Positions 826-17,155 of a stretch of 20,247 nucleotides of DNA are shown piece by piece. Source of the DNA: a virus; IMG/VR virus record IMGVR_UViG_3300037133_000036, positions 1 through 20,247 of that record; one strand, written 5' to 3'. A program made the translations under genes and the position numbers. Below the pieces are notes generated by a model. It worked only from the letters and a program-made list of their open reading frames with translations. It did no database searches and was not told the DNA's origin. The stretch's first letter is position 1. The number at the start of each line of letters is the position of its first letter.

Positions 826-834
826 TATATTATA
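826..834 (-). promoter_or_regulatory. Late promoter-like element TATAATATA (copy 1)
   Basis: On the minus strand the sequence reads ACC TATAATATA ACTAGAGGTA and ends 14 bases before the ATG at 811. The same nine-base word occurs at four other gene or operon starts (4420, 6589, 9034, 14559). It contains a perfect -10 hexamer, but no TTGACA-like -35 lies 16 to 18 bases upstream. The AGAGG that follows can serve as the ribosome binding site, so the leader would be very short. Confidence 0.6.
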
Positions 835-838
835 GGTT

Positions 839-869
839 CGGGCCGCCCGATAGTATGCTGGGCGGCCCG
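839..869 (-). terminator. Strong GC-rich hairpin without a U tract
   Basis: A perfect 10-bp inverted repeat (CGGGCCGCCC and its complement, 839 to 848 and 860 to 869) with an 11-base loop lies downstream of the 448-residue structural gene and directly upstream of promoter-like copy 1. No run of U follows on the minus strand. It may be a partial terminator, an RNA-stability or processing element, or a barrier between the two transcription units. Confidence 0.55.
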
Positions 870-889
870 TGGTGGTTTAGTGCTGTGGA

Positions 890-2236
890 CTAGGCGCCAG
901 CGATGAAGCCGGTGGCGACCAGGGCGGTGCGGATGGCGGTAACGAGGTTCGCCATGCCGACGACGAGCTGAGAACCGAACTGCTTGATCCAGGTCCCGGC
1001 GGTCAGCGCCAGATTCGGAGAGTAGACGATGCTGTAGACCTCAGTGGGCGGCACGATGGCGGCGGCGGTGATGTTCATGAAGTTGATCGCCAGGGTGTTG
1101 GTCGCGCTCACACGGACGCCGGCGATGACGATGCCAGGGGTCAGGGTGGGCTTGTTGATGCCAACGAAGGTGCCCGCGATCAGGTTGGGCACGGTGAAGG
1201 TCTGCTCGGCCGAGGTATTCGCAGCGACCGAAATCGGCGCGATGCTGGCGGTCTGAACGGTCGCGGCGGGGAGCTGGTTGTGCCGGATGATCTCGAACTG
1301 CATCATCTCAGCGGTGGGGGTGACACTGCCGGCCGTGGGATTGACGTAGGTCACGGCGATGTTGCCGGCGCTGGAAACCCGGCTGGAGCAGACGCCCACG
1401 CCAGCGTTCAGGGTGGGTTTGGAGCTTCCCACGATGATGTCATCAGCCAGCACCTGGGTAGCGGTGAGAGTGTTTTCCTGGGTGGTGATGGTGCTGACCG
1501 CAGTAGCGACGGCCGGGACGCCGATCTCCAGGACCGGGCCGACAACGCCCAGGCCATTGGTAGCGAAGAACTGGTAGACCTCACCAGCGGTCGGGGTGAT
1601 CGGGGCGGCGGTGAAGTTGACGAAGCTGATCGCCACCTGGTTGTTGCCCACGACGCGGGCATTATGGATGCCGAGGCCAACCTGCGTAGTGGGTTTATTG
1701 ACGAAGACCACCTGGCCGGGGAAGACGCCGGTAACGGTGAAGATCTGCTCGGCAGTAGTGGCAGCGGCAACAGCCGCAGGGGTCAGGGTGGCGGTGAGCT
1801 GAAGGGCCGCCGAGACGGTCACGAACTGGCACACTTCCGAGGCCGGCACGATGGCCGAACCGGTGTTGTTGCCGTAGCCCATCTGGATGGTATTGGCGGC
1901 GGAAACGCGACCGGACAGGACCGCAAGGCCAGCCTGACCAGTCAACTTGTTGTGGGGAATCAGCATGTCGGTAGCCAGGGCGCCCGTCAGGGTGAGCTGA
2001 CGTTCACCCGTGGTATTGGCCGTGACGGTGGTCACGGTGCCTTCAGTCAGGCTGTAGGCGGTGCCGTTGCCGACTGCGCCGTTGATGGGGAACTGGGCCT
2101 GATTGGGGCCGGATGTCTGCGGCGCACCGAAAGCGCCGTAGAACCCCACATAATCGGCCGGGCCAAAGCCGATGGTCGGATTGGGGGCAACGGTGGTGTC
2201 CAGAGGGTCATTCGTCTGGTAAGGGGTCGAAACCAT
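890..2236 (-). CDS. Virion protein with four tandem beta-rich repeats (head decoration or fibre candidate)
   Basis: This is a 448-residue protein with the ribosome site AGGAGACAC upstream of its start. After an N-terminal segment with a YVGFYGAFGAP stretch it has four related domains of about 70 to 76 residues (roughly 66-141, 152-225, 248-317, 335-406). Each has the order: T-rich strand, hydrophobic core ending in NKPT or SKPT, a G-V-R-V segment, an I-x-F-x-N strand, T-A-A or T-A-G, then P-T-x-E-V/M. The composition (A, T, V, G, N) and lack of enzymatic motifs fit a virion surface protein. The C-terminus (IKQFGSQLVVGMANLVTAIRT) is a predicted amphipathic helix. It follows the coat gene by 25 bases and probably shares its transcript. 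Whether it decorates the capsid or forms a head fibre cannot be told. Confidence 0.7.
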   Translation of the reverse strand: MVSTPYQTNDPLDTTVAPNPTIGFGPADYVGFYGAFGAPQTSGPNQAQFPINGAVGNGTAYSLTEGTVTTVTANTTGERQLTLTGALATDMLIPHNKLTGQAGLAVLSGRVSAANTIQMGYGNNTGSAIVPASEVCQFVTVSAALQLTATLTPAAVAAATTAEQIFTVTGVFPGQVVFVNKPTTQVGLGIHNARVVGNNQVAISFVNFTAAPITPTAGEVYQFFATNGLGVVGPVLEIGVPAVATAVSTITTQENTLTATQVLADDIIVGSSKPTLNAGVGVCSSRVSSAGNIAVTYVNPTAGSVTPTAEMMQFEIIRHNQLPAATVQTASIAPISVAANTSAEQTFTVPNLIAGTFVGINKPTLTPGIVIAGVRVSATNTLAINFMNITAAAIVPPTEVYSIVYSPNLALTAGTWIKQFGSQLVVGMANLVTAIRTALVATGFIAGA

Positions 2237-2261
2237 TTTCTGTGTCTCCTATGGGGTTGGG

Positions 2262-3536
2262 TTACTGGACAACGACAGTGGCGAAGCCCTGGCGCAGAGT
2301 GTTGGCGCCCCACAGGACATCGAGGCGATACAGGATCTTGTCGTTGACACCGTCATACCAGAACAGCGAGCGGCAGCGCAGACCGGACATATCGTCCTTC
2401 ATGCGGCTGGAGGTGATCGCAGCGCCGGCGCCACCCATGCCCGAGGTGTCCTTCAGGTCGGCGAGGCCGAGGGCGAAGGCGTCTTCGTGGAACACGAGGG
2501 ACTGTTTGACGATCTGGCCAGTGCCAGCGGCCAGGGCCAGGGCAGGGGTCACGCCCCAGGGATAAAGGGCAGCGCCAGCCACGGGCAGGGCGTTGACGTT
2601 CTGGAGAGGGCCGGTGAGGCGCAGCGCAGGGGAGAAGGTCAGGAGGGTGCCAACCTGGGATTCCACCACGAAGTGCTTCAGTTCAGCCTGCACACCCTTG
2701 CCGCTCGGGTTCACGGCGTTGACGCCCGCGATGGTGAAATGCTCGCCCGGGTTGAAAGCGCCGGTCATGCCGGAAAGCACGATGGAGTTTCCGCCATCAG
2801 AAGCGCCCGAAGCATACAGGATGGTGCCGGACCAGGTGCCGAGGGTAAGGGAGGGGGCGTTGGCGGTGCTGTAGAAGTCCACGCCACCAGCGTTGCCCAT
2901 GGAACCATTGCGGTACTGTTCGCTGATCTCCTTGGAGGGGAGCAGCAGGCCGGTCAAGCCCTGGAACAGCCCGGCGTTCATGTGGGGGTTGAGCATACCG
3001 CTGACCCGCTCATCGGTATGGGCCGCGCTCTGGGTCTGCGCGTAGGCGTAGCCATCCACGAACGGCTGAAGGGTGGTAACAGGGGTGCCGGGGACACCGA
3101 TCCACTGGTTGAGACCCTGGCCAGCAAGCGGGTTGGCCAGAGTAATGGCAGCATTGGGCATCATGGTCGAGATGATCCCGGCGTCCATCTGCTGCCACAG
3201 GGTGGCCGCGAGAGGGTCCGAAACGTTGCGCTGGAACTCGTCCACGTTCAGGGCCAGCTCTTTGCTGGTCAGTTCGATGTCGCACCCGCCCTGAGCCAAC
3301 TGGAGGGGCACATAGGTGTCGTTGTAGCCGCCAGGATTGGCGGTAGGGCCGGAACGGTAGGCGTAGAAGCCGGGCACGCGGATGTTGAGCGTGTCGCCGA
3401 TCCGGAAGCTCTGCGCCCAGTCACCGTCCCAACGGCGGGCAACGCGGCTCGCCATCTTCAGGTTGTTGCGCACGGTCCGCAGGGACTTCGCGGTGATCAT
3501 GCTGACGTTGTTAAAAAGACTGCTCGAAGCAACCAT
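2262..3536 (-). CDS. Major capsid protein, P22 gp5-like
   Basis: This 424-residue protein is close to the roughly 430 residues of P22 gp5. The N-terminal segment (SMITAKSLRTVRNNLKMASRV, then DTLNIRVPGFYAYR) and the C-terminal segment (QIVKQSLVFHEDAFALGLADL, ending KILYRLDVLWGANTLRQGFA, here with one residue changed at each boundary of family blocks) have the order seen in P22-type coat proteins, which use the HK97 fold with an added insertion domain. The G/S-rich middle (about 215 to 300) would hold that insertion domain. The start is preceded by TAAGGAGTTCAATA, a strong ribosome site. It lies just after the scaffold gene, as in P22-like heads. No promoter-like word sits in the short gap, so it is probably expressed with the scaffold. 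Confidence 0.88.
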   Translation of the reverse strand: MVASSSLFNNVSMITAKSLRTVRNNLKMASRVARRWDGDWAQSFRIGDTLNIRVPGFYAYRSGPTANPGGYNDTYVPLQLAQGGCDIELTSKELALNVDEFQRNVSDPLAATLWQQMDAGIISTMMPNAAITLANPLAGQGLNQWIGVPGTPVTTLQPFVDGYAYAQTQSAAHTDERVSGMLNPHMNAGLFQGLTGLLLPSKEISEQYRNGSMGNAGGVDFYSTANAPSLTLGTWSGTILYASGASDGGNSIVLSGMTGAFNPGEHFTIAGVNAVNPSGKGVQAELKHFVVESQVGTLLTFSPALRLTGPLQNVNALPVAGAALYPWGVTPALALAAGTGQIVKQSLVFHEDAFALGLADLKDTSGMGGAGAAITSSRMKDDMSGLRCRSLFWYDGVNDKILYRLDVLWGANTLRQGFATVVVQ

Positions 3537-3547
3537 TATTGAACTCC

Positions 3548-4369
3548 TTAGTACTCGGTGAACTCGTGGGAAGTGGCCCGCGTCCCAGGAACGGTCTTAA
3601 CTGGGGCGATGGGGGCCGGAAGGGTTGGTTTCTTGACTGGCGTTTCGGCCCTGGGGCCCGGGGTGGGAGCAGGAGCGGTCAACTTGGCCTCGATCTTTCC
3701 AATTGCCTTGGCGGTCTGGAGGGGCGAAAGGCGGGCGATGCTGATTGCCTCGTCCTGGTGGGCCAACAGGTAGTGCCAGAGGTCCGCACCGGCACCGGCT
3801 TCCGAACCCCTGATCAGGCTTACGACCGTGGGATTCGCGGTGGGGATGCCCTGGGCGTCCAAAGCGTTGGCGGACTCGATCAGTTCGGGAAGTTCAGGGT
3901 GAGCAGCGATGATGGCTTTCTGCTTAGCCTGGAACTCCACAGCCTTGGTCCGCTGGTCTCGCTCCCAGAGTTTCAGATCGACCTTGTAATCGATCGGATC
4001 CTCATAGGCGGCGGGGTCAGGGGGCGCAGTCGAGTCCATGATCTGGGCCTGGGGCTGCGGGACGTTCTGCTTCTGCTGGGAAAGAGCGGCGACTTGGCCC
4101 TTGAGCCGTTCGCGTTCCTTGACGAGATCCGCGATGCGCTTCTCAGCGGCACGGCTCCGTTTGTGTTCATCCGCTTCCGGCGCGGCCTCCCCTTCCGGGG
4201 TTTCGGGAGTCTCGGCAGCGGCGAGCGCGGCATCTTCCGCCACTTCGGAGGCTTCGGCTTCCACGGGCACTGCTTCGGGTTCTGGGAGTGCTGGAGTCTC
4301 AGGGGTTTCGACTACCGGAGTAGCCGCAGCGGTCAAAAAGGCGTTAAAATCTTGCACGTCATCTGGCAT
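3548..4369 (-). CDS. Capsid scaffolding protein
   Basis: This 273-residue acidic protein begins MPDDVQDFNAFLTAA and has a long low-complexity stretch rich in E, A, P and T (about 17 to 70). A highly charged coiled-coil segment follows (KRSRAAEKRIADLVKERE near 70 to 90), then a Q-rich linker, then an alpha-helical C-terminal half. This plan (disordered acidic N-terminus, coiled coil, basic C-terminal end) and its place between portal and coat identify the internal scaffold that directs procapsid assembly, functionally like P22 gp8. TTGGAG lies six bases upstream of the ATG. Sequence conservation in scaffolds is weak, so position carries much of the call. Confidence 0.82.
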   Translation of the reverse strand: MPDDVQDFNAFLTAAATPVVETPETPALPEPEAVPVEAEASEVAEDAALAAAETPETPEGEAAPEADEHKRSRAAEKRIADLVKERERLKGQVAALSQQKQNVPQPQAQIMDSTAPPDPAAYEDPIDYKVDLKLWERDQRTKAVEFQAKQKAIIAAHPELPELIESANALDAQGIPTANPTVVSLIRGSEAGAGADLWHYLLAHQDEAISIARLSPLQTAKAIGKIEAKLTAPAPTPGPRAETPVKKPTLPAPIAPVKTVPGTRATSHEFTEY

Positions 4370-4419
4370 GGATCACTCCAAGGTGTATGGGCGGTGTTTA
4401 AAGGGTCACGGTCCCTATA

Positions 4420-4428
4420 TATATTATA
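4420..4428 (-). promoter_or_regulatory. Late promoter-like element TATAATATA (copy 2), upstream of scaffold and coat
   Basis: On the minus strand CTATAATATATAT is followed by AGGGACCGTGACCC. The copy upstream of the small terminase has the same CTATAATATATAT followed by GGGACTGTGACCC, so at least 25 positions are nearly shared. The element begins right after the portal stop codon and lies about 50 bases before the scaffold ATG. No -35 hexamer is seen at the usual distance. Confidence 0.65.
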
Positions 4429-4430
4429 GT

Positions 4431-6572
4431 TCAGGAATTCCCGGGTAGGATTGGCGCTATCTGATCTCCAGGTTCATTATATTCGGGAGGCTGCGCAGCC
4501 TGGGCGACGGCCGCCTTGTGGACCTCCATGTCCTTGCCCAGAACATGCTTCTGGATGTTGATGATTGCTTCGTGATGCTGCTGGTTGTGCAGCTTCAATT
4601 CCTCGACCTGGGCCTGGAGCAGGGTCTTATTGCTGTCGTGCTGCATCTGGGCCGCGCTGCGCCTGATTTCCGTGTCGTTGTCGAGTTGGGCAATCGCAAG
4701 CTTGGTCTTTTCGCTGGCCTGCACCTTGTCCGCAAGCTGGGTTTCGAGCTGGAGCTGCTGGGTGAGTTTCTGGCACATGGCCTGATACTGGGCAAGCTGC
4801 TGCTGGAGGGCCTGCGGGTCGGGGCCCTTCTTCGGGGGCTGGAGGTTGGCTGGCAATGCCTTCTCAAGTCGTTCAGCAAGAGGCTTGGAAATCGGGGAGT
4901 CCAGAAGCGATGCGAGGATGTCCCCGGCGAGGCCCATGAGTTGGGGGTCCTTCGACGCGAGCTGGAACAGGATGTCCCGCTCCTGCTCGCGCTGCGTCTG
5001 GTAGCTCGGGCCAGATTCCACGACCAGACCGTATTCACCAGTCGTCAGGTCGTAGATTTTCTTGATGCCTTCTTCGTTGGCCTCGTTGATCTCGTCCTCG
5101 GCGCCGGTCCCGTTGATGGTGACCAGGCTATTTTTCTTGTCGATGGACATGATCGCCATGACCTGCTTCTCTTTCAGCACCTTGGGGATCAGGTCCACAA
5201 TCTGCCTGGAGCTGGCACGGATGGCCCTGGTCAGGTTGTCGCTGAAATGGTAATTGGCGATGCTACCGGCCTTCTGGATGGCCTTGATGGCCAGGCCAGA
5301 CTGGTCGTTGGCCATCTTGTTGCCCATGGTGGGGTCAAACATCGAGTTGGTAGCCTTGATGTCATTCTCGATGCTGTTTGATACCTCCAACATGCCTTGA
5401 ATAGGCGCTTCCTGGATGTTCCGGGTTGGCGCAGCCAGGGGGTTATTCAGGTCATCGTAGGATTCATAGGTCAAATATGCCTTATTGGTCATATTGGCCT
5501 CCGCCCAATCGTCCTTCATGTCCCCGACGAACCCGGCCGGCCCGATCCAGGGGGTCTTGGGCGCCGCTGCGATCATTTCGATGATGCTGGTCTTCACCAC
5601 GTTGAGCATCATCTGCTCTTCCTTACTGTTCCGGACCAGACCAGCATAGATGCGCTGGCCGGAAACCATCAGAGGATCCCCGAACACTGGTATAATGGGG
5701 ATGCTGGAGCCCACCCATTCGGTTTCCTCCAGTATCTCGATGCCATTGATCTTATACCACTTGATTTTGGGCACGACACAGGACCGTTCGTCGTCAACAT
5801 ACTGCACTTCGCCCGCGTCCAGTTCGTCCTTATACTTCACTTCTCCGGTATGGCTCAGGTGGACTAGCTTCCGGGTCTCGTATTCCTTGACGAAGTATTC
5901 CGCCACGACACAGGCCCGCTTTTCGGTGTCGAACCAATCAGGCAGGCGGTTGTTGAGCCCAAGCCAGCCCTGGTAATCCCGGCCAGCCATCTCCGAGTCT
6001 TTATACTCGCGCTTATACTGGTCTTCGGTAACATAGTTGATGATGAAGGCATACTCGATATCGGACCCGTCCAGCGCCTTATACGTGGGATCGATGAACA
6101 CCTGGAACGGATTGTTGATCGAGTCGATACGGATTCTCTGGTTGAATGACTTCTCTTTGTATTCGGTCAGAATGCGCCAGAAGCCTATGCCAGAGCGGAC
6201 AGCCCACTCGAACGCCTCATCATAGGCCATATCCGCGCTCGACTCGTTCTCGATCTGGCGGACGATGCCTTCCATGACGTTCGCGGTGTCCTCGTTTGCC
6301 GCGTTGTTCGTGGGGTGAATTGAGGCCGCAGGGCGGTTCTCGCGTTGGGCGTTGGTAAGCTGCTTGACTTGTGCGTTGAGTCGATCAGCCGCAAGTGTCG
6401 GCCTCCCCAACCGCTGGTCTCGCACGCCCTGGGGCCATTGGTTATCGGGAGAACAGAAGTCAACGTCAGCCTGGCTGAGTTGATACTGCTTCTCCCATGC
6501 TTTCTTGGCTGCGCGGAAACGTTCTTGGGTTTCGTCCATAAAGGACCTGGACTCAGATTCGCCTTCCGCCAT
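4431..6572 (-). CDS. Portal protein, P22 gp1-like
   Basis: This 713-residue protein has a length typical of P22-type portals (P22 gp1 is about 725). The N-terminal part is characteristic: a region with DFCSPDNQWP (about 38-47), then RPTLAADRLNAQVKQLTNAQ and RENRPAASIHP, then a stretch ending in FEWAVRSGIGFWRI. The middle carries the wing and stem regions. The last 110 residues are Q-rich and strongly helical (PQALQQQLAQYQAM onward), matching the C-terminal helical barrel that extends into the head in P22. The dodecameric portal forms the DNA channel and the terminase docking site. The start is preceded by AGAGGTAGATCAAT. Its own promoter-like element lies 16 bases upstream. Confidence 0.88.
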   Translation of the reverse strand: MAEGESESRSFMDETQERFRAAKKAWEKQYQLSQADVDFCSPDNQWPQGVRDQRLGRPTLAADRLNAQVKQLTNAQRENRPAASIHPTNNAANEDTANVMEGIVRQIENESSADMAYDEAFEWAVRSGIGFWRILTEYKEKSFNQRIRIDSINNPFQVFIDPTYKALDGSDIEYAFIINYVTEDQYKREYKDSEMAGRDYQGWLGLNNRLPDWFDTEKRACVVAEYFVKEYETRKLVHLSHTGEVKYKDELDAGEVQYVDDERSCVVPKIKWYKINGIEILEETEWVGSSIPIIPVFGDPLMVSGQRIYAGLVRNSKEEQMMLNVVKTSIIEMIAAAPKTPWIGPAGFVGDMKDDWAEANMTNKAYLTYESYDDLNNPLAAPTRNIQEAPIQGMLEVSNSIENDIKATNSMFDPTMGNKMANDQSGLAIKAIQKAGSIANYHFSDNLTRAIRASSRQIVDLIPKVLKEKQVMAIMSIDKKNSLVTINGTGAEDEINEANEEGIKKIYDLTTGEYGLVVESGPSYQTQREQERDILFQLASKDPQLMGLAGDILASLLDSPISKPLAERLEKALPANLQPPKKGPDPQALQQQLAQYQAMCQKLTQQLQLETQLADKVQASEKTKLAIAQLDNDTEIRRSAAQMQHDSNKTLLQAQVEELKLHNQQHHEAIINIQKHVLGKDMEVHKAAVAQAAQPPEYNEPGDQIAPILPGNS

Positions 6573-6588
6573 ATTGATCTACCTCTAT

Positions 6589-6597
6589 TATATTATA
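6589..6597 (-). promoter_or_regulatory. Late promoter-like element TATAATATA (copy 3), upstream of portal
   Basis: The minus strand reads CTACC TATAATATA ATAGAGGTAG, with ATG 16 bases after the word. CTACCT and AGGTAG form a perfect inverted repeat around it. The layout copies that of the element at 826: word, then AGAGGTA, then start codon. A TTGACA nearby is on the other strand and belongs to the rightward promoter. Confidence 0.62.
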
Positions 6598-6612
6598 GGT
6601 AGACATTTTCTC

Positions 6613-6641
6613 TTGACACGGTATGCGGACTGACCGATGAT
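6613..6641 (+). promoter_or_regulatory. Sigma70-type promoter for the rightward moron
   Basis: A perfect TTGACA (6613 to 6618), a 17-base spacer and GATGAT (6636 to 6641, four of six matches to TATAAT) point rightward. Transcription would start near 6648, a few bases before the first stem of the structured leader. Unlike the late elements it has a full -35, so the host polymerase could use it without phage help. Confidence 0.55.
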
Positions 6642-6653
6642 TGCCTCGTTGGA

Positions 6654-6748
6654 GTTGAGCCCAACCTTATCCCTCACATCTCGCCATCCTGCCTATCCGT
6701 CCAGTTTGCCCATTCATTGGGGCTCAACCAAACAGGAGATAGGCAGGA
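6654..6748 (+). ncRNA. Pseudoknotted 5' leader RNA, copy 1 (candidate cis-regulatory element)
   Basis: Two perfect inverted repeats cross each other. Stem A is GTTGAGCCC (6654-6662) with GGGCTCAAC (6720-6728). Stem B is TCCTGCCTATC (6687-6697) with GATAGGCAGGA (6738-6748). The order A, B, A', B' is that of an H-type pseudoknot or of two mutually exclusive folds. A small hairpin CCCA/TGGG (6709-6712, 6718-6721) abuts A'. The element lies just after the predicted transcription start and ends 15 bases before the GTG of the next gene, beside its ribosome site. A second copy with different stem sequences but the same plan is at 14453-14550 on the other strand. Function and ligand unknown. Confidence 0.75.
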
Positions 6749-6763
6749 CCTTTGGAGTCCACC

Positions 6764-7102
6764 GTGGACATCGATACCCTCACCATCAAGGAAGCGCGTC
6801 AGATCGCCAATCTATTCGCTATTGAAAAGACAGTGGCAGCGCTCCACGTCCCGTTCGAGGTCGGCAAGGCTTACCTCATCCGCACCGTGACCATGGCGTG
6901 GACCGGCCGCGTGACCGCCATTTACCCCGAATTCCTCACCATGGAAGACGGCGCCTGGATCGCTGATACCGGCCGCTATCATGAGGCCATCGCGCAAGGC
7001 GTGTTCAGCGAGGTCGAGCCGGCCGGCAATGTCATCATCGGCATCGGGTCCATCGTGGACGCCATCGAATGGAAGCACGATCTCCCGATGAAGGTTAAGT
7101 GA
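6764..7102 (+). CDS. Moron protein of unknown function (KEAR...AWIADTGR family)
   Basis: This gene lies on the strand opposite to the late genes that flank it. I choose GTG 6764 because GGAG lies six bases upstream; an in-frame TTG at 6752 has no proper ribosome site. The 112-residue protein begins MDIDTLTIKEARQIANLF and has a central YLIRTVTMAWTGRVTAIYP segment, then AWIADTGRYHEAIAQG, VEPAGNVIIGIGSIVDA and a terminal WKHDLPMK. I recall this pattern from small proteins in other phages and prophages, often followed by a gene made of dipeptide-like repeats, as here. It has no signal peptide or membrane segment. Its stop overlaps the next ATG by one base. Function unknown. Confidence 0.72.
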   Translation: MDIDTLTIKEARQIANLFAIEKTVAALHVPFEVGKAYLIRTVTMAWTGRVTAIYPEFLTMEDGAWIADTGRYHEAIAQGVFSEVEPAGNVIIGIGSIVDAIEWKHDLPMKVK

Positions 7103-7302
7103 TGAACGCCGCCATTGGAAGAACCGGGTATGTAATGTCGCGGTCGCGGTCGTGGTCGGGGTCGGGGTCGGGGTCGTGGTCGCGGTCGCGGTCGCGGTCG
7201 CGGTCGTGGTCGTGGTCGTGGTCGTGGTCGCGGTCGCGGTCGGGGTCGCGGTCGTGGTCGGGGTCGTGGTCGGGGTCGGGGTCGCGGTCGCGGTCGCTCT
7301 AA
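7102..7302 (+). CDS. Ultra-low-complexity (RS/WS/GS)n protein
   Basis: ATG 7102 shares a base with the stop of the upstream gene (TGATG), which argues that it is translated. After a short unique start (MNAAIGRTGYVMS) nearly every second residue is serine, alternating with R, W or G, up to a final L. There is no known fold for such a sequence and it is probably disordered. The 66-residue product could be a peptide with its own role, or the repeats may matter as DNA or RNA. The ORF stops 21 bases before the terminator that ends this unit. Confidence 0.5.
   Translation: MNAAIGRTGYVMSRSRSWSGSGSGSWSRSRSRSRSWSWSWSWSRSRSGSRSWSGSWSGSGSRSRSL
7138..7296 (+). repeat. Hexanucleotide tandem array (HGG TCG, H or G in first place)
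   Basis: About 26 units of six bases read tcg followed by cgg, tgg or ggg. Only the first base of the second codon varies. The array is in frame with the 7102 ORF and keeps all three plus frames and one minus frame open. Such an array is prone to slippage, in units that preserve the frame. Confidence 0.95.
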
Positions 7303-7323
7303 GCAAAAACAGGGAATACAAGG

Positions 7324-7346
7324 TGCCCCATTCGTGGGGCATTTTT
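7324..7346 (+). terminator. Rho-independent terminator of the rightward moron
   Basis: TGCCCCA (7324-7330), loop TTCG, TGGGGCA (7335-7341) and five T form a textbook terminator pointing right. The stop codon of the large terminase on the other strand (TAA, 7347 to 7345) lies inside the T run. In the leftward direction the hairpin is not followed by a T run. Confidence 0.88.
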
Positions 7347-8679
7347 ATGTCATCCATGCGTTTGGGCTGGACCGGCGCGGCCTATCGTCGGCAGGTTTCT
7401 TGGGTGCCTTGGTTAGCGCGGGGAAAAGCTCGGTAAGCAACCATACCAAAGCATCCGCCCGGTTGGGCGATCCCTGGCCTAGATACCCATTGGTGGTGAA
7501 TCCGGCCAGTTCTTCTTCCATCTCTGGGAAATACCCTACGTGCGACACCTTCCCGCTCTCATAGAGGGCGCTGATTGGCTCGGCCCGCACTACCTTGCCA
7601 CGGCTCGCGCTCACAGCCTTGTAGTGCGTTCTGGGCCGCGCCGTCTGAATAGTAAATCGGACCATCTCCCCGCCGAAATTGGACTCACCGATGATAGCGT
7701 CGGCTTCATGGCGGTCGAAGGCGCTGGTGGCCACCTTTCCCCACGTCGCCGGCCCGGCTTTGACGGTCAGATCCTCCAGAATGTAGGCCCGGCCATCCGT
7801 CCCCAGGCCGCCCACCATGATACCGATGGCGTCGTTATCCGCATTGTCGGTATCACCGGCTCCACTTGGGTCCACGGCGACAAGCACACGCACCAAGTCA
7901 GGGATCTCGCTGCCTGTGACGCGCCATTTGTCGATGTCCGTCTCATTAAACAAGGAATTCGGGTTTTCGTCAGACCATTCCCCCCGAAGGAACCTTTTCT
8001 GTTGTCTCGCGCCGAGACCATTCAAAGTCTTGATGTAGGTATCGGAAAGATTCACCAGGTTATCCGCTGGGTTCATCTGGAAATAGGCGTAATCATCCGG
8101 TGATTCCAGTTTTACTTTGGTATCAGGGTCTAGGTGCTGGTGGAACATCTTATAGCCCCAGTGACCCTTGCCTGTGGGGTTCAGATCGTAATACATCCGA
8201 ACAGGCATCGGGCGCTTTACACCGTCGATCTCCTGATCCACCTTCTGGGCTAGGCGCGTCACAGCCATGTTCCGCGACTCGAAAGGTATCTGGCTGATCT
8301 CATTGAGGTAAATGGTCACAAACTCCCGCCCGAGGATCTTCTCAACCCGGGCCTTGTCATCCAGGCCACCGAACCATATCTCTGAGCCATTGGGCAGCAG
8401 AGCCATCCAGTCCGTCTTGTTCAGGTCGTAGGGCACATCCGGGAAGCACGTGGCCATGACCTTCGGAAACGTGTCCTGGATGATGCTAGCCTTCACATGG
8501 CTGAACCGGAACCGCAGGATGCAGTGCCGGCTGTTCTTGGCCTTGAGCGCCCGCATAACCACGGCACGGACCAGAAGGTAGGTTTTGCCAGAGCGCGATC
8601 CGCCCTCAAGCATGATATGGGTGGCATTGCTCGCGAGGACCTTCTGCTGCGCCGTGGTCTGGGCCGGAGTGAGGCTCAC
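7345..8679 (-). CDS. Terminase large subunit
   Basis: This 444-residue packaging motor has both expected halves. The ATPase has a Walker A at residues 26-33 (GGSRSGKT) and a Walker B ending in acidic residues at about 121-127 (VTIYLNE). The C-terminal RNase H-like nuclease has the acidic residues D270 (in VAVDPSGAG), E332 (in GESNFGG) and D409 (in NRADALVW). It cuts concatemeric DNA and drives it through the portal. The start is GTG at 8679, overlapping the small-subunit stop as GTGA, with AGAGGA upstream. Family: Terminase_6-type. The head genes suggest headful packaging, but cleavage style cannot be read here. Confidence 0.92.
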   Translation of the reverse strand: MSLTPAQTTAQQKVLASNATHIMLEGGSRSGKTYLLVRAVVMRALKAKNSRHCILRFRFSHVKASIIQDTFPKVMATCFPDVPYDLNKTDWMALLPNGSEIWFGGLDDKARVEKILGREFVTIYLNEISQIPFESRNMAVTRLAQKVDQEIDGVKRPMPVRMYYDLNPTGKGHWGYKMFHQHLDPDTKVKLESPDDYAYFQMNPADNLVNLSDTYIKTLNGLGARQQKRFLRGEWSDENPNSLFNETDIDKWRVTGSEIPDLVRVLVAVDPSGAGDTDNADNDAIGIMVGGLGTDGRAYILEDLTVKAGPATWGKVATSAFDRHEADAIIGESNFGGEMVRFTIQTARPRTHYKAVSASRGKVVRAEPISALYESGKVSHVGYFPEMEEELAGFTTNGYLGQGSPNRADALVWLLTELFPALTKAPKKPADDRPRRSSPNAWMT

Positions 8680-8993
8680 AGGAGTTCATCCTCTGGGGTT
8701 GACCGCACAATCAGGGCTCCGCCGTCCCTCCCTGTTAGTTCTGTCCTGGCCAGCTTAGGCACCCCGAATTCGAGCAGGGCCGTGAACGCTGCAAGTGCGC
8801 CTTTGGGGTCCGTCTCGGCAATCGCTTCAAGCCATCCCTGCACCGAGGGGGCATTCCCGTCCAGCAGCTCTTGGATGACTTCCCTGGCTTTGGTTGTCAC
8901 TTTGTTAGGTTTGCCCTTCCTTGAACCCCCACTATTTGCCACTTTGGGAGTCCCCTTGGGGGGTCCTGGCCTTTTCCGATTATTGGAGTCCAA
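8676..8993 (-). CDS. Terminase small subunit
   Basis: This 105-residue protein overlaps the large subunit start by four bases. It is basic at the N-terminus (MDSNNRKRPGPPKGTPKV, then GGSRKGKPNKVTTKAREV), followed by helices containing VIQELLDGNAPSVQGWLEAI and LAAFTALLEFGVPKLAR. The pattern K-x-N-K-x-T-x-x-A-R-E/D is common in small terminase subunits that recognise DNA and regulate the motor. It starts with TTG at 8993, chosen because TGAGGAG lies six to seven bases upstream and no ATG or GTG is near. A rare start may keep its level low. Confidence 0.8.
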   Translation of the reverse strand: MDSNNRKRPGPPKGTPKVANSGGSRKGKPNKVTTKAREVIQELLDGNAPSVQGWLEAIAETDPKGALAAFTALLEFGVPKLARTELTGRDGGALIVRSTPEDELL

Positions 8994-9033
8994 CGCTCGC
9001 TCCTCAGTGTTTTTAGTGGGTCACAGTCCCATA

Positions 9034-9042
9034 TATATTATA
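9034..9042 (-). promoter_or_regulatory. Late promoter-like element TATAATATA (copy 4), upstream of the terminase genes
   Basis: The word overlaps the TAA stop of the upstream gene (CTA TAA TATA). It is followed by TATGGGACTGTGACCC, nearly the same as the sequence after copy 2. About 40 bases separate it from the TTG start of the small terminase. It would start the late operon. Confidence 0.65.
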
Positions 9043-9340
9043 GATCGCCGTCACATTCGTGCATAATAGCGCAAGCCTGCTCAATTGCACTATCGGCATC
9101 CCAGTCATATACACTGTATGACCCAACAGGAGTATTCGGATAGAATTGAATCTCCACCACCTGATTCATCGCAATCATCATCCTCCGCGTTTGGGGGTCA
9201 ACGATTGGGGGGCATTCGTCCTGGTCGTGTTCCTTGAACCATTCAGCGGCCGTCTGATAGATGTCTCGATGGACGTTGATATTCAGGTAGAACCCACATT
9301 TGCACCGGCTAAGGAGCCAATTAAGTTTGTCAAAGCTCAT
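9038..9340 (-). CDS. Conserved phage protein of unknown function (CKCG start)
   Basis: I choose ATG 9340, which overlaps the stop of the sigma-like gene as ATGA and has GGAG eight bases upstream. An upstream GTG at 9346 would sit too close to that site. The 100-residue protein has CKCG near residue 13 (a possible metal site with a later ECPP), a central MNQVVEIQFYPNTPVGSYSVY segment and a helical end ending MHECDGDL. I recall similar small proteins with an IQFYP-D/N-T-P-x-G pattern near phage packaging genes, but no function. It is the last gene before the late operon. Confidence 0.65.
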   Translation of the reverse strand: MSFDKLNWLLSRCKCGFYLNINVHRDIYQTAAEWFKEHDQDECPPIVDPQTRRMMIAMNQVVEIQFYPNTPVGSYSVYDWDADSAIEQACAIMHECDGDL

Positions 9341-9654
9341 GGCCACATCTCCACTTCTAGCTGGTCAAGTCTGCTGGTGTATCGCAGGTCTCGCCGATTA
9401 TACGTCTTCCTGGCGAATATGAGGTATGTGTTGATCCAGCTCCAGAGTTTGACCCCCCGGGCTGGATCGTATCGGTGAATGGCGAGGACCAGGTGCAGGT
9501 AGTATTCCGACTCCAGGTCCTCAGGGTCGCGCACGGTTGATTCAGGCATCTTCATGCGGGCCACCACGCAGGGCATGGCGTATTCGATGCAGGCGTCGAT
9601 TCCTACGCCCTTCAGGATGGCTTGTGCTGTGGCCTCATCAAAGAAGCAGGCCAT
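9337..9654 (-). CDS. Short sigma-factor-like protein (region 2 only), candidate late transcription factor
   Basis: I choose ATG 9654 because it overlaps the upstream stop as ATGA and AGGA lies ten bases before it; a TTG at 9672 is less likely. The 105-residue protein contains DLESEYYLHLVLAIHRYDP followed by ARGVKLWSWINTYLIFA. This fits the core of sigma70 region 2 (D-L-x-x-E, hydrophobic helix, A-I/V-x-x-[FY]-D, R-G, aromatic, W or Y, I). A basic segment (RKTYNRRDLR) follows where region 2.3/2.4 would melt and read the -10 element. Regions 3 and 4, which read the -35, are absent. T4 gp55 is a known short sigma of this kind that reads only a TATAAATA box. The gene directly precedes the late operon. 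The match is by eye. Confidence 0.62.
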   Translation of the reverse strand: MACFFDEATAQAILKGVGIDACIEYAMPCVVARMKMPESTVRDPEDLESEYYLHLVLAIHRYDPARGVKLWSWINTYLIFARKTYNRRDLRYTSRLDQLEVEMWP

Positions 9655-10004
9655 CAGAAGTGCATCCTGCAACCGACTGCCGCGTTGCGCTGGCTGACGA
9701 TTACCTCAAACCCGATGGTCGCGCCCTGCCATACGTTCCGGTAGGGGCCGGGAAGCGCCATTGAGATCAGCGGGTGCGCGATGAGCCAGCCGGCGAAATA
9801 CATATTCAGGTTCCCCCGCTTCGGGTGGGAGCCCATGATCTTCTGGTCGATCCCGCAGACACAGGGAGCCGTGGTCATCTGTGCCCATTCGCCGGCCAAT
9901 CCCGCCTCGCTGGCTACCTCCAGGATGGTGTCTGTGGTGGTCCACGGGGTGGACGCAGCCAGGGGCAGGCAGGACATCAGGAGTAACGCGAGAACGTATC
10001 TCAT
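9654..10004 (-). CDS. Small exported or membrane phage protein
   Basis: I choose ATG 10004, two bases after the stop of the upstream gene, because it opens with a signal-like stretch (MRYVLALLLMSCLPLAAS); the longer frame to 10145 overlaps the zinc protein. LMSC may be a lipobox, though methionine before serine is unusual. The 116-residue protein continues with WTTTDTILEVAS, then DQKIMGSHPKRGNLNMYFAGWLIAHPLIS with a second hydrophobic stretch, and PGPYRNVWQGATIGFEV. I recall a family of phage membrane proteins with W-T-T-x-D, L/M-G-x-H-P-x-x-G-x-x-N-x-Y-F and R-x-x-W-Q in this order. Their function is not known to me; a role at the envelope during infection or lysis is possible. Confidence 0.65.
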   Translation of the reverse strand: MRYVLALLLMSCLPLAASTPWTTTDTILEVASEAGLAGEWAQMTTAPCVCGIDQKIMGSHPKRGNLNMYFAGWLIAHPLISMALPGPYRNVWQGATIGFEVIVSQRNAAVGCRMHF

Positions 10005-10798: not shown

Positions 10799-11514
10799 AC
10801 TGCCTCCAGTCCAAGGTCTGGAGTCTCTAGTCGCAAAGGGTCTGCCTCAAAAAGTCTTTGCTTTTGATTTTCCGAAGCAAATCTGATGCGCTTGCAGGCA
10901 ATTCCAAAGTATTTGGGTTCACGTTCTATTCCAATAAAATGCCGACCAGAATTAATAGCTGCTTCCCCAGTGGTCCCACTTCCCATGAATGGGTCAAGGA
11001 TTAGTTTGGAATTTGGGAGGAAGCCCAAACACCACTCCATAAGCGGAAGTGGTTTCTCGGTTGGGTGTCCGGTCTTATGGACTCCAACAGGCCCCGACCA
11101 CCTTTTTGTCGGTCGGTCGAAATTAGTCCAGGCCATTTCGCAATCCGCAACCGTATGGACAGCGTTCTGTTTGTCCCAAATTAGCCAGCAGCGGGAAGGT
11201 GGCAGCGCGAAATAATGCCCCCCCCAGATTATACTTGGTCCCATCGCCGCGATCCCCAGAATTGTTTCGTCCAGTGGCGCAACGTCCCATTTCCACATAT
11301 CAGAATATTTATCTGCTGTGCCCCAGGTTCCCCCGCTCATCCTTTTACCAAGACCGTAAGGGGGATCGGTGACAATGGCATCAACCTTTGGGATCGTAGG
11401 CAGAATGTCCCGGCAATCCCCAAGATAAAGCGTGGCGTTGCCTATGACTACTTTTTGCACATATGCGTTGCTATAGGCATTTTGTTTAGATTGGCTATCC
11501 ATTGACAGGTTCAT
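10795..11514 (-). CDS. Amino-group DNA methyltransferase (N6-adenine or N4-cytosine, beta class)
   Basis: This 239-residue enzyme has the catalytic motif TDPPYG (residues 49-54) before the AdoMet-binding motif DPFMGSGTTG (174-183). That order is typical of beta-class enzymes such as those of small phage orphan methyltransferases. HPTEKP (150-155) precedes the second motif, as usual in this family. It modifies exocyclic amino groups, and DPPY is seen with both adenine and cytosine targets. No restriction gene is nearby, so it probably protects phage DNA or marks it for regulation. Both ends overlap neighbours by ATGA. Confidence 0.9.
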   Translation of the reverse strand: MNLSMDSQSKQNAYSNAYVQKVVIGNATLYLGDCRDILPTIPKVDAIVTDPPYGLGKRMSGGTWGTADKYSDMWKWDVAPLDETILGIAAMGPSIIWGGHYFALPPSRCWLIWDKQNAVHTVADCEMAWTNFDRPTKRWSGPVGVHKTGHPTEKPLPLMEWCLGFLPNSKLILDPFMGSGTTGEAAINSGRHFIGIEREPKYFGIACKRIRFASENQKQRLFEADPLRLETPDLGLEAV

Positions 11515-11768
11515 GATGCCTTCCGCTCATCCTGAGCCTTGCTACCTCGTCGTAGCATCCCTTCCTTCCCCATCTTCTCGGTGATATCCATGACAGCCCA
11601 TTCGATGAACTTGGGGATGCCCAGCTCGTGGAGTTCCATCGAGCCGGATTTGCGGTAGTAGAGCAGGTGGTTTCGCCGGTCGATCCTGACGATTTCCCGG
11701 GTGGGGCCTCCCGTTCCGAGATACACGCATCCCTGCTCCAGGTCTTCGGGTTTGATCTTCATGCTCAT
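11511..11768 (-). CDS. Small phage protein of unknown function
   Basis: This 85-residue protein starts MSMKIKPEDLEQGCVYLG and has a beta-rich first half (REIVRIDRRNHLLYYRKS), like a small barrel, followed by a helix (IPKFIEWAVMDITEKM) and a basic tail. Both ends overlap neighbours by ATGA, which supports it as a gene. No function recognised. Confidence 0.65.
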   Translation of the reverse strand: MSMKIKPEDLEQGCVYLGTGGPTREIVRIDRRNHLLYYRKSGSMELHELGIPKFIEWAVMDITEKMGKEGMLRRGSKAQDERKAS

Positions 11769-12031
11769 TTCGTAGGTCCTTCCACTGTCTGGATGTTGAT
11801 GGTCACCTTGACAACCCTGGCCTTGTTCTTCGGGATGCCAATGCGAATGCAGGCAACCCTAGCTTTGGCCCTGGTTTCAAACACTGCTGTCCGGCAGGCC
11901 CCCAGATAATTAGGCACTTTTGCATCCCCAGCTTCCCATGCCCAAAACGAGATGCCACATAAGAACGGCTTTTCTCCTGGCCATTGGCATTGGACTGCCC
12001 AACCTTTGTATGTTTTTTGCACAGGGCTCAT
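11765..12031 (-). CDS. Small phage protein of unknown function
   Basis: This 88-residue protein starts MSPVQKTYKGWAVQCQWPG, contains FETRAKARVACIRIGIPKN and ends in a beta strand (RVVKVTINIQTVEG). The middle pattern T-R-A-K-A-R-x-x-A and the strand ARVVKVTI are familiar from small proteins in replication operons of phages. I know no function. The start overlaps the helicase stop as ATGA. Confidence 0.65.
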   Translation of the reverse strand: MSPVQKTYKGWAVQCQWPGEKPFLCGISFWAWEAGDAKVPNYLGACRTAVFETRAKARVACIRIGIPKNKARVVKVTINIQTVEGPTK

Positions 12032-13383
12032 GCGAAATCCTCCGTGAGGTAGGAAAGTGGCGCGGGGTTGGCGAACCCGGAATCTTCCGAGGTCTGCCGT
12101 TCGAGTTCGATGTAGCGGGTGATTTCAGGTTTGAAGCTGAGGGGCAGCGTCATGCAGGGCCCGTTTCGGTGCTTGGCGATGATGAGTTCCGTGCTGGTCT
12201 GGGCCATGGCCCGGTGAATGAAGATCACCATGTCTGCGTCCTGCTCGATGCAGCCCGAATCCCGAAGGTCTGAAAGCTGAGGCTTGCCGGCCTGGCGCTT
12301 CTCCACCTCGCGGTTGAGCTGGGATAGCAGAACCACAGGAACATGCCGGTCCTTCGCCAGCAGTTTCAGCGCCCGGGTAATCTCCCCGATGCGCACCGTC
12401 TCGCTCTGGTTCTTCGCTCCCGGGGCGGACGTGAGCAACTGGAGGTAATCGATCACCAGGAGATCCAGCTTCCCGTGCCGGCCGATGATCCGGTCAGCCT
12501 GGGCGCAGATTTCAGGGACGGTGATTTTGGCCCGATCCGAGACATGGAGCGGAAGCTCGTCAACCTCCATTTTCCCCTGGGCGAACAGGCTGAAGGATTC
12601 CTGGTCGTGTTCCTCGATCATCTTCCGGGTGTCCACGCCGCTCTTGTCGGAAACCAGACGGTTCCAGAGTTCTTCCTTAGGCATTTCCAGGCTAAAGAAC
12701 GCGGCCCGCTTCCCGTTCATCCCGGCCCGTAGTAGCCAATTCATGGCCAGGGCCGATTTCCCGATGCCTGGGCGGGCCGCTAGGACGATCAATTGACCCG
12801 GCTGGAGCCCATGGGTCAAACCGTTGAATCGGGGCCACCCGTGAAGCCTGGTGCCCATTACGGAGCGTCCCTCGACTTTGTCCAGCATTTCGGCCAGGGC
12901 ATCGTCGCTGAAATTGGCAACAGCCTCGATGTTCCCCTTGTCGCTGCTCTGGGCCATGGCGGAAAGGCTGGCGGACGCCTCGGCGACCACCTCAAGCGGG
13001 TCTGTATCGGCCGCCGTCTTGAGGATCCGATACCCGATGGCCTGGAGTTCCCGCTGTTTCCGGGCCGTCTGGAGGTAGCGGATCAACACTTCCGGCCGGC
13101 CTACTTCCTCGGCCTCCAGGATGGAATGGAGCCCGGTAATGTCCCCCACGATGTTGAGCGTCCCTTGAATGGCGAGCCGGTCCCGAAGGGTCAGGGAGTT
13201 AATTTCCTCGCCTTCGGTCACCAGGGAGCGCAGCGCCACGAAAACGGCCCGGTGGGATGGGACCAGGAAATCATGGTCCTGGAGGGTGGGGACCAGAACA
13301 GCGGCCGCATGTTCGGCACCGGGGGCGCAAAGGGTGGCGATGGTGGAACGCTCGGCTTCAGGGTTCTCCGGGACGGGGATCAC
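12028..13383 (-). CDS. dnaB: Replicative DNA helicase, DnaB family
   Basis: This 451-residue protein has the two DnaB domains. The N-terminal helical domain covers roughly residues 1-100 (NPEAERSTIATLC start, then DHDFLVPSHRAVFVALRSL). The RecA-like motor has Walker A ARPGIGKS (203-210), the H1a-type SLEMPKEELW (231-240), Walker B LVIDYLQL (309-316), LSQLNREVEKR (353-363) and an arginine-finger segment KHRNG (404-408). It is a hexameric helicase that moves 5' to 3' at the fork. Encoding its own DnaB and an initiator lets the phage form its own replisome core. It starts with GTG, overlapping the initiator stop as GTGA. Confidence 0.93.
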   Translation of the reverse strand: MIPVPENPEAERSTIATLCAPGAEHAAAVLVPTLQDHDFLVPSHRAVFVALRSLVTEGEEINSLTLRDRLAIQGTLNIVGDITGLHSILEAEEVGRPEVLIRYLQTARKQRELQAIGYRILKTAADTDPLEVVAEASASLSAMAQSSDKGNIEAVANFSDDALAEMLDKVEGRSVMGTRLHGWPRFNGLTHGLQPGQLIVLAARPGIGKSALAMNWLLRAGMNGKRAAFFSLEMPKEELWNRLVSDKSGVDTRKMIEEHDQESFSLFAQGKMEVDELPLHVSDRAKITVPEICAQADRIIGRHGKLDLLVIDYLQLLTSAPGAKNQSETVRIGEITRALKLLAKDRHVPVVLLSQLNREVEKRQAGKPQLSDLRDSGCIEQDADMVIFIHRAMAQTSTELIIAKHRNGPCMTLPLSFKPEITRYIELERQTSEDSGFANPAPLSYLTEDFA

Positions 13384-14225
13384 ATGGCCTCCAGTAAGAT
13401 CGGTTGCTGCTGTTTGGCCTTTTCATCGGCATGAGCAATAGCTTCCCTAGCCAAGGGGAGAAGTTGCCGGTATGGCTTCTTCTCGGGCCCGTAGAACGTG
13501 GAAACGTGCATGATCGCTTGGTCCCGGTATTCCCAGGCGTCCATGATCCGCTGCTTTAAGTCTGGGTAGAGTTCAGCCTTGGCATAGAGCATCCCGCAGC
13601 CCTTCAACTCACGGGCGGTAGCTTCCCCGGAATCAATGATCTTTTGGAAGGCCCTGGCAGCAGCAGCGAACGGTCCCTTGTGGGCCTTCCCACCATTGGG
13701 GTCCTGGGTTGGCCAAGCTTGGTAAACAGGCCGCAGGGATTCTTCTGCTTCTGGGGAGCAATCCAATTCCACCTTCCCTGGCTTGCCCTTCTTCCCGGAA
13801 GTAGCGGTAGCTACTTCTCGGTCCTTTGGTCCTTGGTCCCTTCCTTGATCCCCCGACGATAGTTCGCGAGTATTCGCGAGGATTCGCGAGGATTCGTCGA
13901 ATGGTGGTATTTTTGACTGGCTTGGTTTGTCTATCTTCTGGTGACTCAACCAGTTACAGATTTGGATATAGGAATCCGAACCATGGCTATAGCGGGAAAT
14001 ACAACCCTCAACCTGGAGTTCCTCAAGCCACCCATCAACCATAGTTTTAGCGTCGTCGTCATAGGGGAAAAGAAGGCTCGCGAGCATTCGCGAATTCCCG
14101 CGAAGCCTCCCCGAATCGTCAGCGAGGGTCCAAAGCATGATGAATGTGAGACGAGCATCCCTGGAAACTCGGCCCATAGATTCAGACTGGGGAAACTCTG
14201 GCTTGATGGTTCGGATTCTAGCCAT
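13380..14225 (-). CDS. Phage replication initiator (winged-helix O-like protein)
   Basis: This 281-residue protein begins MARIRTIKPEFPQSESM and has TFIMLWTLADDSGRLRG and LASLLFPYDDDA, the N-terminal DNA-binding domain typical of phage replication proteins that precede a helicase gene. The middle (about 115 to 160) is a low-complexity linker. The C-terminal part (LRPVYQAWPTQDPNGGKAHKG, then helices) resembles the part that contacts helicase or loader. The start overlaps the upstream stop as TAATG. As in lambda O, clustered 10-base repeats lie within the gene, so it may contain the origin it binds. The role is inferred from the domain and the adjacent dnaB. Confidence 0.78.
   Translation of the reverse strand: MARIRTIKPEFPQSESMGRVSRDARLTFIMLWTLADDSGRLRGNSRMLASLLFPYDDDAKTMVDGWLEELQVEGCISRYSHGSDSYIQICNWLSHQKIDKPSQSKIPPFDESSRILANTRELSSGDQGRDQGPKDREVATATSGKKGKPGKVELDCSPEAEESLRPVYQAWPTQDPNGGKAHKGPFAAAARAFQKIIDSGEATARELKGCGMLYAKAELYPDLKQRIMDAWEYRDQAIMHVSTFYGPEKKPYRQLLPLAREAIAHADEKAKQQQPILLEAM
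13861..13900. repeat. Iteron-like 10-bp repeats, cluster 1 (candidate origin)
   Basis: TCGCGA occurs at exact 10-base intervals (starting 13864, 13874, 13884), with a degenerate fourth unit TCGTCGA at 13894. The unit is about TTCGCGAGGA. Ten bases is one helical turn but not a multiple of three, so the repeat is not caused by a repeated peptide. It lies in the linker-coding part of the initiator gene, as the lambda origin does in O. Confidence 0.6.
14078..14104. repeat. Iteron-like 10-bp repeats, cluster 2
   Basis: TCGCGA at 14078 and 14088 and CCGCGAA at 14098 again fall exactly 10 bases apart. The stretch encodes the RGNSRMLAS segment, which is well kept in the protein family, so part of this cluster may be forced by the protein. 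It lies about 214 bases from cluster 1. Confidence 0.4.
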
Positions 14226-14558: not shown

Positions 14559-14567
14559 TATATTATA
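14559..14567 (-). promoter_or_regulatory. Promoter-like element TATAATATA (copy 5), upstream of the replication genes
   Basis: The minus strand reads GATATAATATAAGTATCAGGG, placed right after the stop of the 64-residue gene. Transcription would start near 14555, about five bases before stem A of the leader. It shares the nine-base word with the four late copies but not the CTATAA start or the GTGACCC tail. Confidence 0.5.
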
Positions 14568-14570
14568 TCC

Positions 14571-14765
14571 CTATGCCGGTTTGGCGTCAAGCACTTGCTG
14601 GGGTTCGCCGGCCAACCTGGACGCGCTTTGCAGCTTTGACTTTGCCGCCAAAAGGTCTGTGACGGCGCGGTTTACCAGTGCCCTGGCGGTTCCGTCTGGG
14701 ACTTCGAGCGCGGACGCCTGAACGGTGATCTGGGCCACGATGAGGGACGCTTCCCGACAGTTCAT
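14571..14765 (-). CDS. Small helical protein of unknown function
   Basis: This 64-residue protein (MNCREASLIVAQITVQASAL onward) is predicted to be nearly all helix, with LVNRAVTDLLAAKSKLQSA, and ends in AKPA. Its start overlaps the upstream stop as ATGA, and its TAG stop is followed at once by promoter-like copy 5. No function recognised. Confidence 0.6.
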   Translation of the reverse strand: MNCREASLIVAQITVQASALEVPDGTARALVNRAVTDLLAAKSKLQSASRLAGEPQQVLDAKPA

Positions 14766-16918: not shown

Positions 16919-17155
16919 TTACTTTCTGCCGGGTTTTGCCTTGTCAACACGATGCGTCACGGGCTTAATTCGGATAAGTTCTGATGCAAGGATCACGTCA
17001 TTAGACGCAGCCTGGATGGGGTCCGCCACGTCTAGGGTTGGGCGCTTGGCCCCGCTGAAGATCTTGTAGAGGTAGCACCTTGTGATGCCAACTCGGGACG
17101 CGATTTCAGCCGGGTCCATGCCGTGATCTCTAAGGCGCTTCGTAAATCTGTTCAT
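16919..17155 (-). CDS. XRE/Cro-like helix-turn-helix regulator
   Basis: This 78-residue protein starts MNRFTKRLRDHGMDPAEIA and contains a helix-turn-helix at about residues 13 to 40 (PAEIASRVGITRCYLYKIFS, then GAKRPTLDVA). The basic C-terminus (VTHRVDKAKPGRK) may stabilise DNA binding. It lacks the peptidase or oligomerisation domain of CI repressors, so it resembles Cro or a small repressor. It is the first gene of the leftward operon, facing the divergent control region, where it probably binds. Confidence 0.75.
   Translation of the reverse strand: MNRFTKRLRDHGMDPAEIASRVGITRCYLYKIFSGAKRPTLDVADPIQAASNDVILASELIRIKPVTHRVDKAKPGRK

Follow-up and report, generated by a model that had tools for sequence, protein, structure and literature searches.

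What transcribes the virion genes of a P22-like phage when the word recurring in front of them resembles half of a host promoter? This question is raised by a 20,247-base IMG/VR phage record, the whole of which was analysed and is referred to here as the window. Its left two thirds are read from the minus strand, with genes for RusA, replication initiator, DnaB-like helicase, DNA methyltransferase, NinB, large terminase, P22-like portal, scaffold and major capsid protein, and RecT lies on the plus strand in the right part. Copies of the word CTATAATATA stand before virion-region genes, and a gene for a short sigma-like protein is located between the replication and terminase genes. The reading favoured here, with a probability of about 0.74, is that a phage sigma consisting of region 2 only switches on the late genes at promoters that have only a -10 element, by the same logic as T4 gp55 and phiEco32 gp36.

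The word is real. It occurs exactly, and on the minus strand, at the four places noted in an earlier sequence-only reading of this DNA, each time directly before a virion-region gene (ORF, open reading frame; aa, amino acids; nt, nucleotides):

826..835, minus strand: putative late promoter, -10-only (CTATAATATA, exact match; -35 2/6; no extended -10), before the 89-aa ORF at 542-811; short leader, predicted 11 nt
4420..4429, minus strand: putative late promoter, -10-only (exact match), before the scaffold gene; long leader, predicted 47 nt
6589..6598, minus strand: putative late promoter, -10-only (exact match), before the portal gene; short leader, predicted 13 nt
9034..9043, minus strand: putative late promoter, -10-only (exact match), before the small terminase candidate; long leader, predicted 37 nt

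A fifth copy, with one mismatch, lies at 14559-14568 on the minus strand. In 100 shuffles of the window, the average was 0.15 matches and no shuffle gave more than 1, as compared with these five (at most one mismatch). The shorter form TATAATATA is found 0/5 times (plus/minus strand) in the window, 0/7 in the relative G001 (38.6 kilobases) and 5/0 in the relative G002, with shuffle means of 0.000 for the window and G001, and every one of these sites lies on the coding strand of the genes downstream. The word is thus not as frequent at random places as before genes, which was the check that the sequence-only reading had named. Its proposal of a late-promoter word is backed by position, orientation, orthologous conservation and the presence of a phage-encoded sigma-like protein.

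The architecture of these sites was examined in a profile of 31 sites from the window phage and its relatives. The conserved core is TATAATATA[A/T] followed by purines, where the six TATAAT columns are fixed by the choice of exact-TATAAT sites. The host-type fifth site is part of the profile, as are three terminase sites that are nearly identical; it omits G002 27520 (CATAAT), G007 43376 (no clear gene start), G003 9936 (opposite strand), L046 10329 (a near copy of the G012 site) and the remaining near-identical copies in G001, G005 and G003. Almost no information is present in the -35 region, and across the 31 sites the mean best match to TTGACA is 2.94 against 2.80 when shuffled, a value reached by 16.5% of shuffles. 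The four late sites of the window fall short of a host sigma70 promoter, as their best -35 matches are 2-4/6 (spacings 14-20) and none has a TGn extended -10. At the terminase site, an identical block running from CTATAATATA into the gene start is shared by the window and G005, with unrelated flanking DNA on both sides; the reader of this site therefore seems to need nothing upstream. Together, the late sites look like -10-only promoters.

The fifth site belongs to a different class, and it precedes the replication genes:

14559..14597, minus strand: putative host-type sigma70 promoter, TTGACG-N17-TATAAT, the only strict sigma70-like match on either strand of the window
12028..14225, minus strand: DnaB-like helicase and replication initiator genes (phrog_19, phrog_1408), part of the gene run that ends with the sigma gene

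The sequence-only reading had taken this site for a fifth, partial copy of the late word. A one-mismatch copy is indeed present, but a near-consensus -35 (TTGACG) is located at 17 base pairs (bp) from the -10 box, the spacing expected for host sigma70, and TATAAT lies 127 nt away from the start codon (17, 19, 43 and 53 nt for the sites at 826, 6589, 9034 and 4420, respectively). It has the appearance of a normal host sigma70 promoter that drives the replication genes. The fifth site departs from the late sites just as expected of a promoter read by the host, and this was counted in favour of a separate late reader.

The candidate for that reader is encoded by a gene that follows the replication and NinB genes and immediately precedes those for the terminase:

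9337..9672, minus strand: putative region-2-only sigma-like protein (Pfam Sigma70_r2, fold), 111 aa from TTG 9672 or 105 aa from ATG 9654

The sole Pfam match of this protein is Sigma70_r2 (PF04542; E 1e-05, 25.7 bits, cut-off 24). Homologues were identified in G001, G002, G005, G007, G012, G013 and L046, which makes eight with the window. Sigma70_r2 is the best Pfam family for all eight (E <= 0.012), with scores above the cut-off in the window, G001, G005 and G013 and of 15.8-20.4 bits, below it, in the remaining four. It is the only Pfam match in seven, and that of G002 also has a sub-cut-off AAA_assoc match. No region 4 was found; most homologues are 107-112 aa long, and the longer ORFs of G013 and G012 (155 and 136 aa) have no further Pfam match. 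In PHROGs, four homologues each have a sigma-factor family as their top match, weakly (E 0.006-0.04), and one homologue weakly matches phrog_234, ‘late sigma transcription factor’ (E 0.067). Residues invariant across seven homologues include, in window numbering, D52, E56, L61, A64, I65, R67, Y68, L76, W79, I80, Y83, L84 and A87.

An AlphaFold model built from six sequences (predicted local distance difference test score, pLDDT, 81) matches the fold of sigma domain 2 in the PDB. The matches listed by Foldseek are either sigma chains or sigma-containing polymerase complexes (E 0.07-0.48), and sigma chains appear in both the Foldseek and VIA-align lists, with Z up to 10.3. Against T4 gp55 (7d7c_F), Z is 8.8, with a root-mean-square deviation of 2.4 over 101/111 residues and 8% identity. 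Such scores would not be decisive by themselves; the case holds because a sequence family match, a conserved position and co-occurrence with the word come together. The 105-111 aa protein thus seems to be region 2 of the sigma-70 family without a region 4, and is predicted to bind core polymerase and to direct initiation.

Conservation and co-occurrence were traced through relatives. A search with the portal recovered G001 (38,628 bases, 98%), G005 (11,139 bases, 99%), G002 (35,278 bases, 69%), G003 (68%) and G004 (65%), and an alignment search added G013 (75%), G006/G007, G008-G011 and G012 (47-48%). Six of the seven TATAATATA sites of G001 precede late genes, and all six have a counterpart before the orthologous G002 gene, five as TATAATATA and one as CATAATATA at 27520. 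The proteins behind these matched sites are 43-69% identical (the 43% being over 53 aa). Orthologues of the 826 site occur in G002, G003 and G007, those of the 4420 site in G002, G004/G003, G013, G012 and G007, and those of the 6589 site in G002, G004, G013, G012 and G007.

Among the 23 contigs and loci compared for co-occurrence, the sigma gene is present in eight, all of which have the word (six as TATAATATA, two with one TATAATA each). In the 15 without a detected sigma, three partial contigs of the same clade (G003, G004, G006) have sites and 12 lack TATAATATA, even though several of these 12 have a lower G+C content. By comparison with G007, the sigma gene of G006 would sit just past the end of the record. 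In the sigma-less G008-G011, the DNA before the portal gene is without such a word. Five loci (L023, L025, L027, L028 and L031) were not carried into this set; TATAATA occurs five times in L023 and three times in L027 (once as TATAATATG), with none in L025, L028 and L031. The best portal tree groups the sigma-bearing G007 and G012 with G008-G011 (91/94 support), a grouping that would mean joint loss of sigma and word. As an observation on a more distant branch, sites at G007 35699, L021 3986 and L046 10329 lie behind the sigma gene and before a cysteine-rich, zinc-ribbon-like ORF.

The late sites were also described by the sequence-only reading as two extended subtypes. Both exist as described, with a one-base length difference within each pair that went unmentioned. 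In the long subtype, the 4420 site reads CTATAATATATAT-A-GGGAC-C-GTGACCC, with an extra A relative to CTATAATATATAT-GGGAC-T-GTGACCC at 9034; in the short subtype, the 826 site reads ACCTATAATATAA-C-TAGAGGTA, with an extra C relative to ACCTATAATATAA-TAGAGGTA at 6589. The proposed difference in leader length also stands as anatomy: with transcription set to start 7 nt after TATAAT, the predictions are 11 and 13 nt for the short subtype and 37 and 47 nt for the long one. That this could set different translation levels is a suggestion of the sequence-only reading. In the window, short-subtype leaders of 11-13 nt would place the Shine-Dalgarno sequence at +1 or +2, and in predicted near-leaderless transcripts overall it lies mostly from +1 to +3. 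The long subtype would open at or beside a hairpin, GGG-ACYGUGA-CCC, behind which come an A-rich linker and CACYG:

9004..9030, minus strand: predicted 5' leader element of the small terminase transcript, hairpin GGG-ACUGUGA-CCC, A-rich linker, CACUG; kept in relatives
4391..4416, minus strand: predicted 5' leader element of the scaffold transcript, hairpin GGG-ACCGUGA-CCC, A-rich linker, CACCG; kept in relatives

The long subtype with this leader was found in eight stretches, all from this clade, among 2.9 million viral contigs. At the same place, G007 and G012 have a second type (type II), GAG-UUCUUGGAC-CUC followed by AAAACCA. A MAFFT alignment of both types misaligned type II, so hairpin pairs were counted on type I only (seven rows, six distinct). 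One outer pair is compensatory (AU to UA), a modest signal given that 17/500 shuffles reach the score, and single-sequence folding of seven leaders is in most cases not clearly better than that of shuffles (z -2.3 to +0.8). Inspection by eye suggests that the hairpin is possibly closed into a small pseudoknot through GUG/CAC (type I) or UGG/CCA (type II). An Rfam identity was rejected: the whole window has no match at gathering score, and two leader stretches taken from relatives have none at E <= 1.

The simplest account of these observations is a cascade from sigma70 through the replication genes and the mini-sigma to the late promoters. Host RNA polymerase with host sigma70 would first transcribe the replication genes from TTGACG-17-TATAAT at 14567, and the last genes of that run would yield the 105-111 aa, region-2-only sigma, which would bind host core polymerase. 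Lacking region 4, it would read no -35 element, and it would direct initiation at TATAATATA[A/T] before each virion module, that is, the small terminase, the portal, the scaffold and the 89-aa ORF, and in the longer relative also before a 232-aa ORF and a Tlde1-domain gene. Transcripts that start about 7 nt past these boxes would be of two kinds, one near-leaderless and one beginning with the 5' hairpin. The hairpin leader might stabilise the RNA or control terminase and scaffold jointly; on P22 scaffold autoregulation, no usable paper turned up in the search made. Observed directly are the word with its placement and conservation, the missing -35, the region-2 homology and fold of the sigma, and the co-occurrence of the two; that this sigma reads these sites is inferred, as are where and when transcription starts and what the leader might do.

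Comparable logic exists elsewhere, and region-2-only phage sigmas with -10-only promoters are already known. The T4 late promoter box is TATAAATA (letters not found as a word in the paper checked), and gp55 has 185 aa. The published T4 account describes late promoters without -35 conservation and a gp55 that resembles sigma in domain 2 only (PMC2988020). The phage studied here shares with it the region-2-like domain and has putative -10-box-only promoters before late genes, but its late box differs from that of T4, the two proteins have 8% identity, the protein here is shorter, and the phage is P22-like. phiEco32 gp36 lacks region 4 and reads a single element, tAATGTAtA, with the start 6-8 bp downstream (PMC8948821). 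The absence of region 4 and, by prediction, the single promoter element and the start distance are alike; the element itself and the phage group are different.

In lambda and P22, late control is exerted by the Q antiterminator, and the genome order here would predict Q. As in those phages, replication genes and NinB are followed by a late regulator (here a putative one) and then by terminase and head genes, and the NinB, RusA, RecT and DnaB-type helicase genes are of lambda-like kinds. In contrast to those phages, a sigma-like gene occupies the place of Q, and there are many putative late promoters rather than one. No match to a Q-like family was found among the window ORFs scanned, and no Q-like antiterminator among ten ORFs scanned in the sigma-less G011.

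Several points weigh against the mini-sigma as the late reader. Because the sigma and the word follow one phylogeny, finding them together amounts to few independent events; two changes are required on the best portal tree, yet 7% of bootstraps need one. As several records are fragments, an absent sigma is not proof of absence. The G002 homologue scores 15.8 bits, under the Pfam cut-off, each Foldseek E-value is weak by itself (best 0.069), and unrelated helical proteins can also reach Z values as high as these. The sigma has no protein match in 50,697 phage records and none in the genome contigs scanned. Moreover, the -10 consensus of host sigma70 is TATAAT itself, so the late sites might be read by the host enzyme without the phage protein. 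On that alternative, which appears unlikely, they would be -10-driven promoters for the sigma70 holoenzyme, perhaps with a phage activator bound elsewhere, and the mini-sigma would do something else. The exact -10 hexamer and the full sigma70 promoter at 14567 in the same phage agree with it, but at the four late sites neither a -35 nor a TGn accompanies that hexamer, and the 31-site profile has an ATA extension after it, which is not known to be part of the usual host consensus. Nor is an activator easily accommodated: the 31 sites share no upstream feature (the best upstream position reaches 0.5 bits, at -15), the window and G005 have no upstream DNA in common at the terminase site, and sigma-less relatives lack the word.

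It is very improbable that the word is not a promoter at all and instead an operator or a recombination boundary for the exchange of phage modules. Modules do differ on either side of the identical terminase-site block, and inverted repeats flank some of the sites (for instance TCTACCT..AGGTAGA at the portal). However, these repeats are not general, the strict gene orientation and the short spacing to a Shine-Dalgarno sequence or leader hairpin go against such a role, and exchange at a shared promoter fits a promoter role too. A further proposal, doubtful on present evidence, is an addition to the mini-sigma reading and not a substitute for it: portal-type promoters would lie within a helix that covers the ribosome site when transcription reads through from upstream, and transcripts begun at the promoter itself would lack this helix. 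At the portal sites of G002 and G004, long helices span the Shine-Dalgarno sequence, whose predicted pairing drops from 1.00 and 0.99 in read-through RNA to 0.21 and 0.69 in promoter-started RNA (p against shuffles 0.003 and 0.086), and T4 offers precedents in the late promoters close to the ribosome sites of gene e, soc, 49 and I-TevI (PMC3014915). The nearness of promoter and ribosome site is shared with those leaders, but the hiding of the site is not general in this phage group. Only 1/20 sites reaches p < 0.05, which is the chance level, and p is 1.0 for the portal of G012 and 0.41 for that of G001; as a general device, the helix was rejected.

If the mini-sigma does read the late sites, the T4-style late switch extends to a small P22-like phage that carries lambda-like genes. 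The sigma would barely exceed domain 2, and would offer a minimal system for what promoter opening needs without region 4. The promoter word could be used to annotate late genes in these uncultured phages. No report of a 105-112 aa sigma family from P22-like phages with genes of lambda-like kinds turned up in the open-licence literature searched. A bolder version is tentative and somewhat less likely than its opposite: a lambda-like lineage would have swapped the Q antiterminator for a domain-2-only sigma of about 105 aa, smaller than any other stand-alone sigma known, that arose or was captured independently of T4 gp55. Its late regulon would comprise six or more scattered -10-only promoters, and two of these would have a common pseudoknotted 5' leader jointly controlling terminase and scaffold synthesis. 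Two scans of genome contigs for a prophage or host home gave no relative, and so no host.

The remaining virion genes of the window are as follows:

2262..3536, minus strand: major capsid protein gene, downstream of the scaffold gene and without a promoter site of its own (phrog_283, E 1.7e-46)
3548..4369, minus strand: scaffold protein gene (phrog_8865, E 1.2e-18)
4431..6572, minus strand: P22-like portal protein gene (phrog_156, E 1.4e-109)
7345..8679, minus strand: large terminase gene (phrog_979, E 4.7e-72)
8676..8993, minus strand: small terminase candidate, 105 aa, TTG start, named from its position before the large terminase gene; no family match

A strong hairpin at 843-869 lies directly upstream of the -10 box of the 89-aa ORF, and a hairpin is found at the same place in G002, G003 and G007. 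Its stem sequences differ in the four phages and it has no T-run; it is perhaps the RNA 3' end of the capsid transcript. In the sigma-bearing relative L046, the large terminase ORF (11208-12896, plus strand) appears to hold an insert, which we take to be intein-like from its signature, with a further ORF on the opposite strand within the insert. Between the portal and large terminase genes, a long run of GGTCGC/GGTCGT/GGTCGG hexamers occupies window positions 7139-7300, where the overlapping ORFs differ in G001. The minus-strand ORF at 14762-15631 encodes a protein of many near-identical short repeats (phrog_7964, function unknown), of which the G001 copy is shorter (211 aa). Lastly, a small helix-turn-helix, repressor-like gene at 16919-17155 (minus strand) adjoins the divergent early region and has weak matches to phage repressor families.

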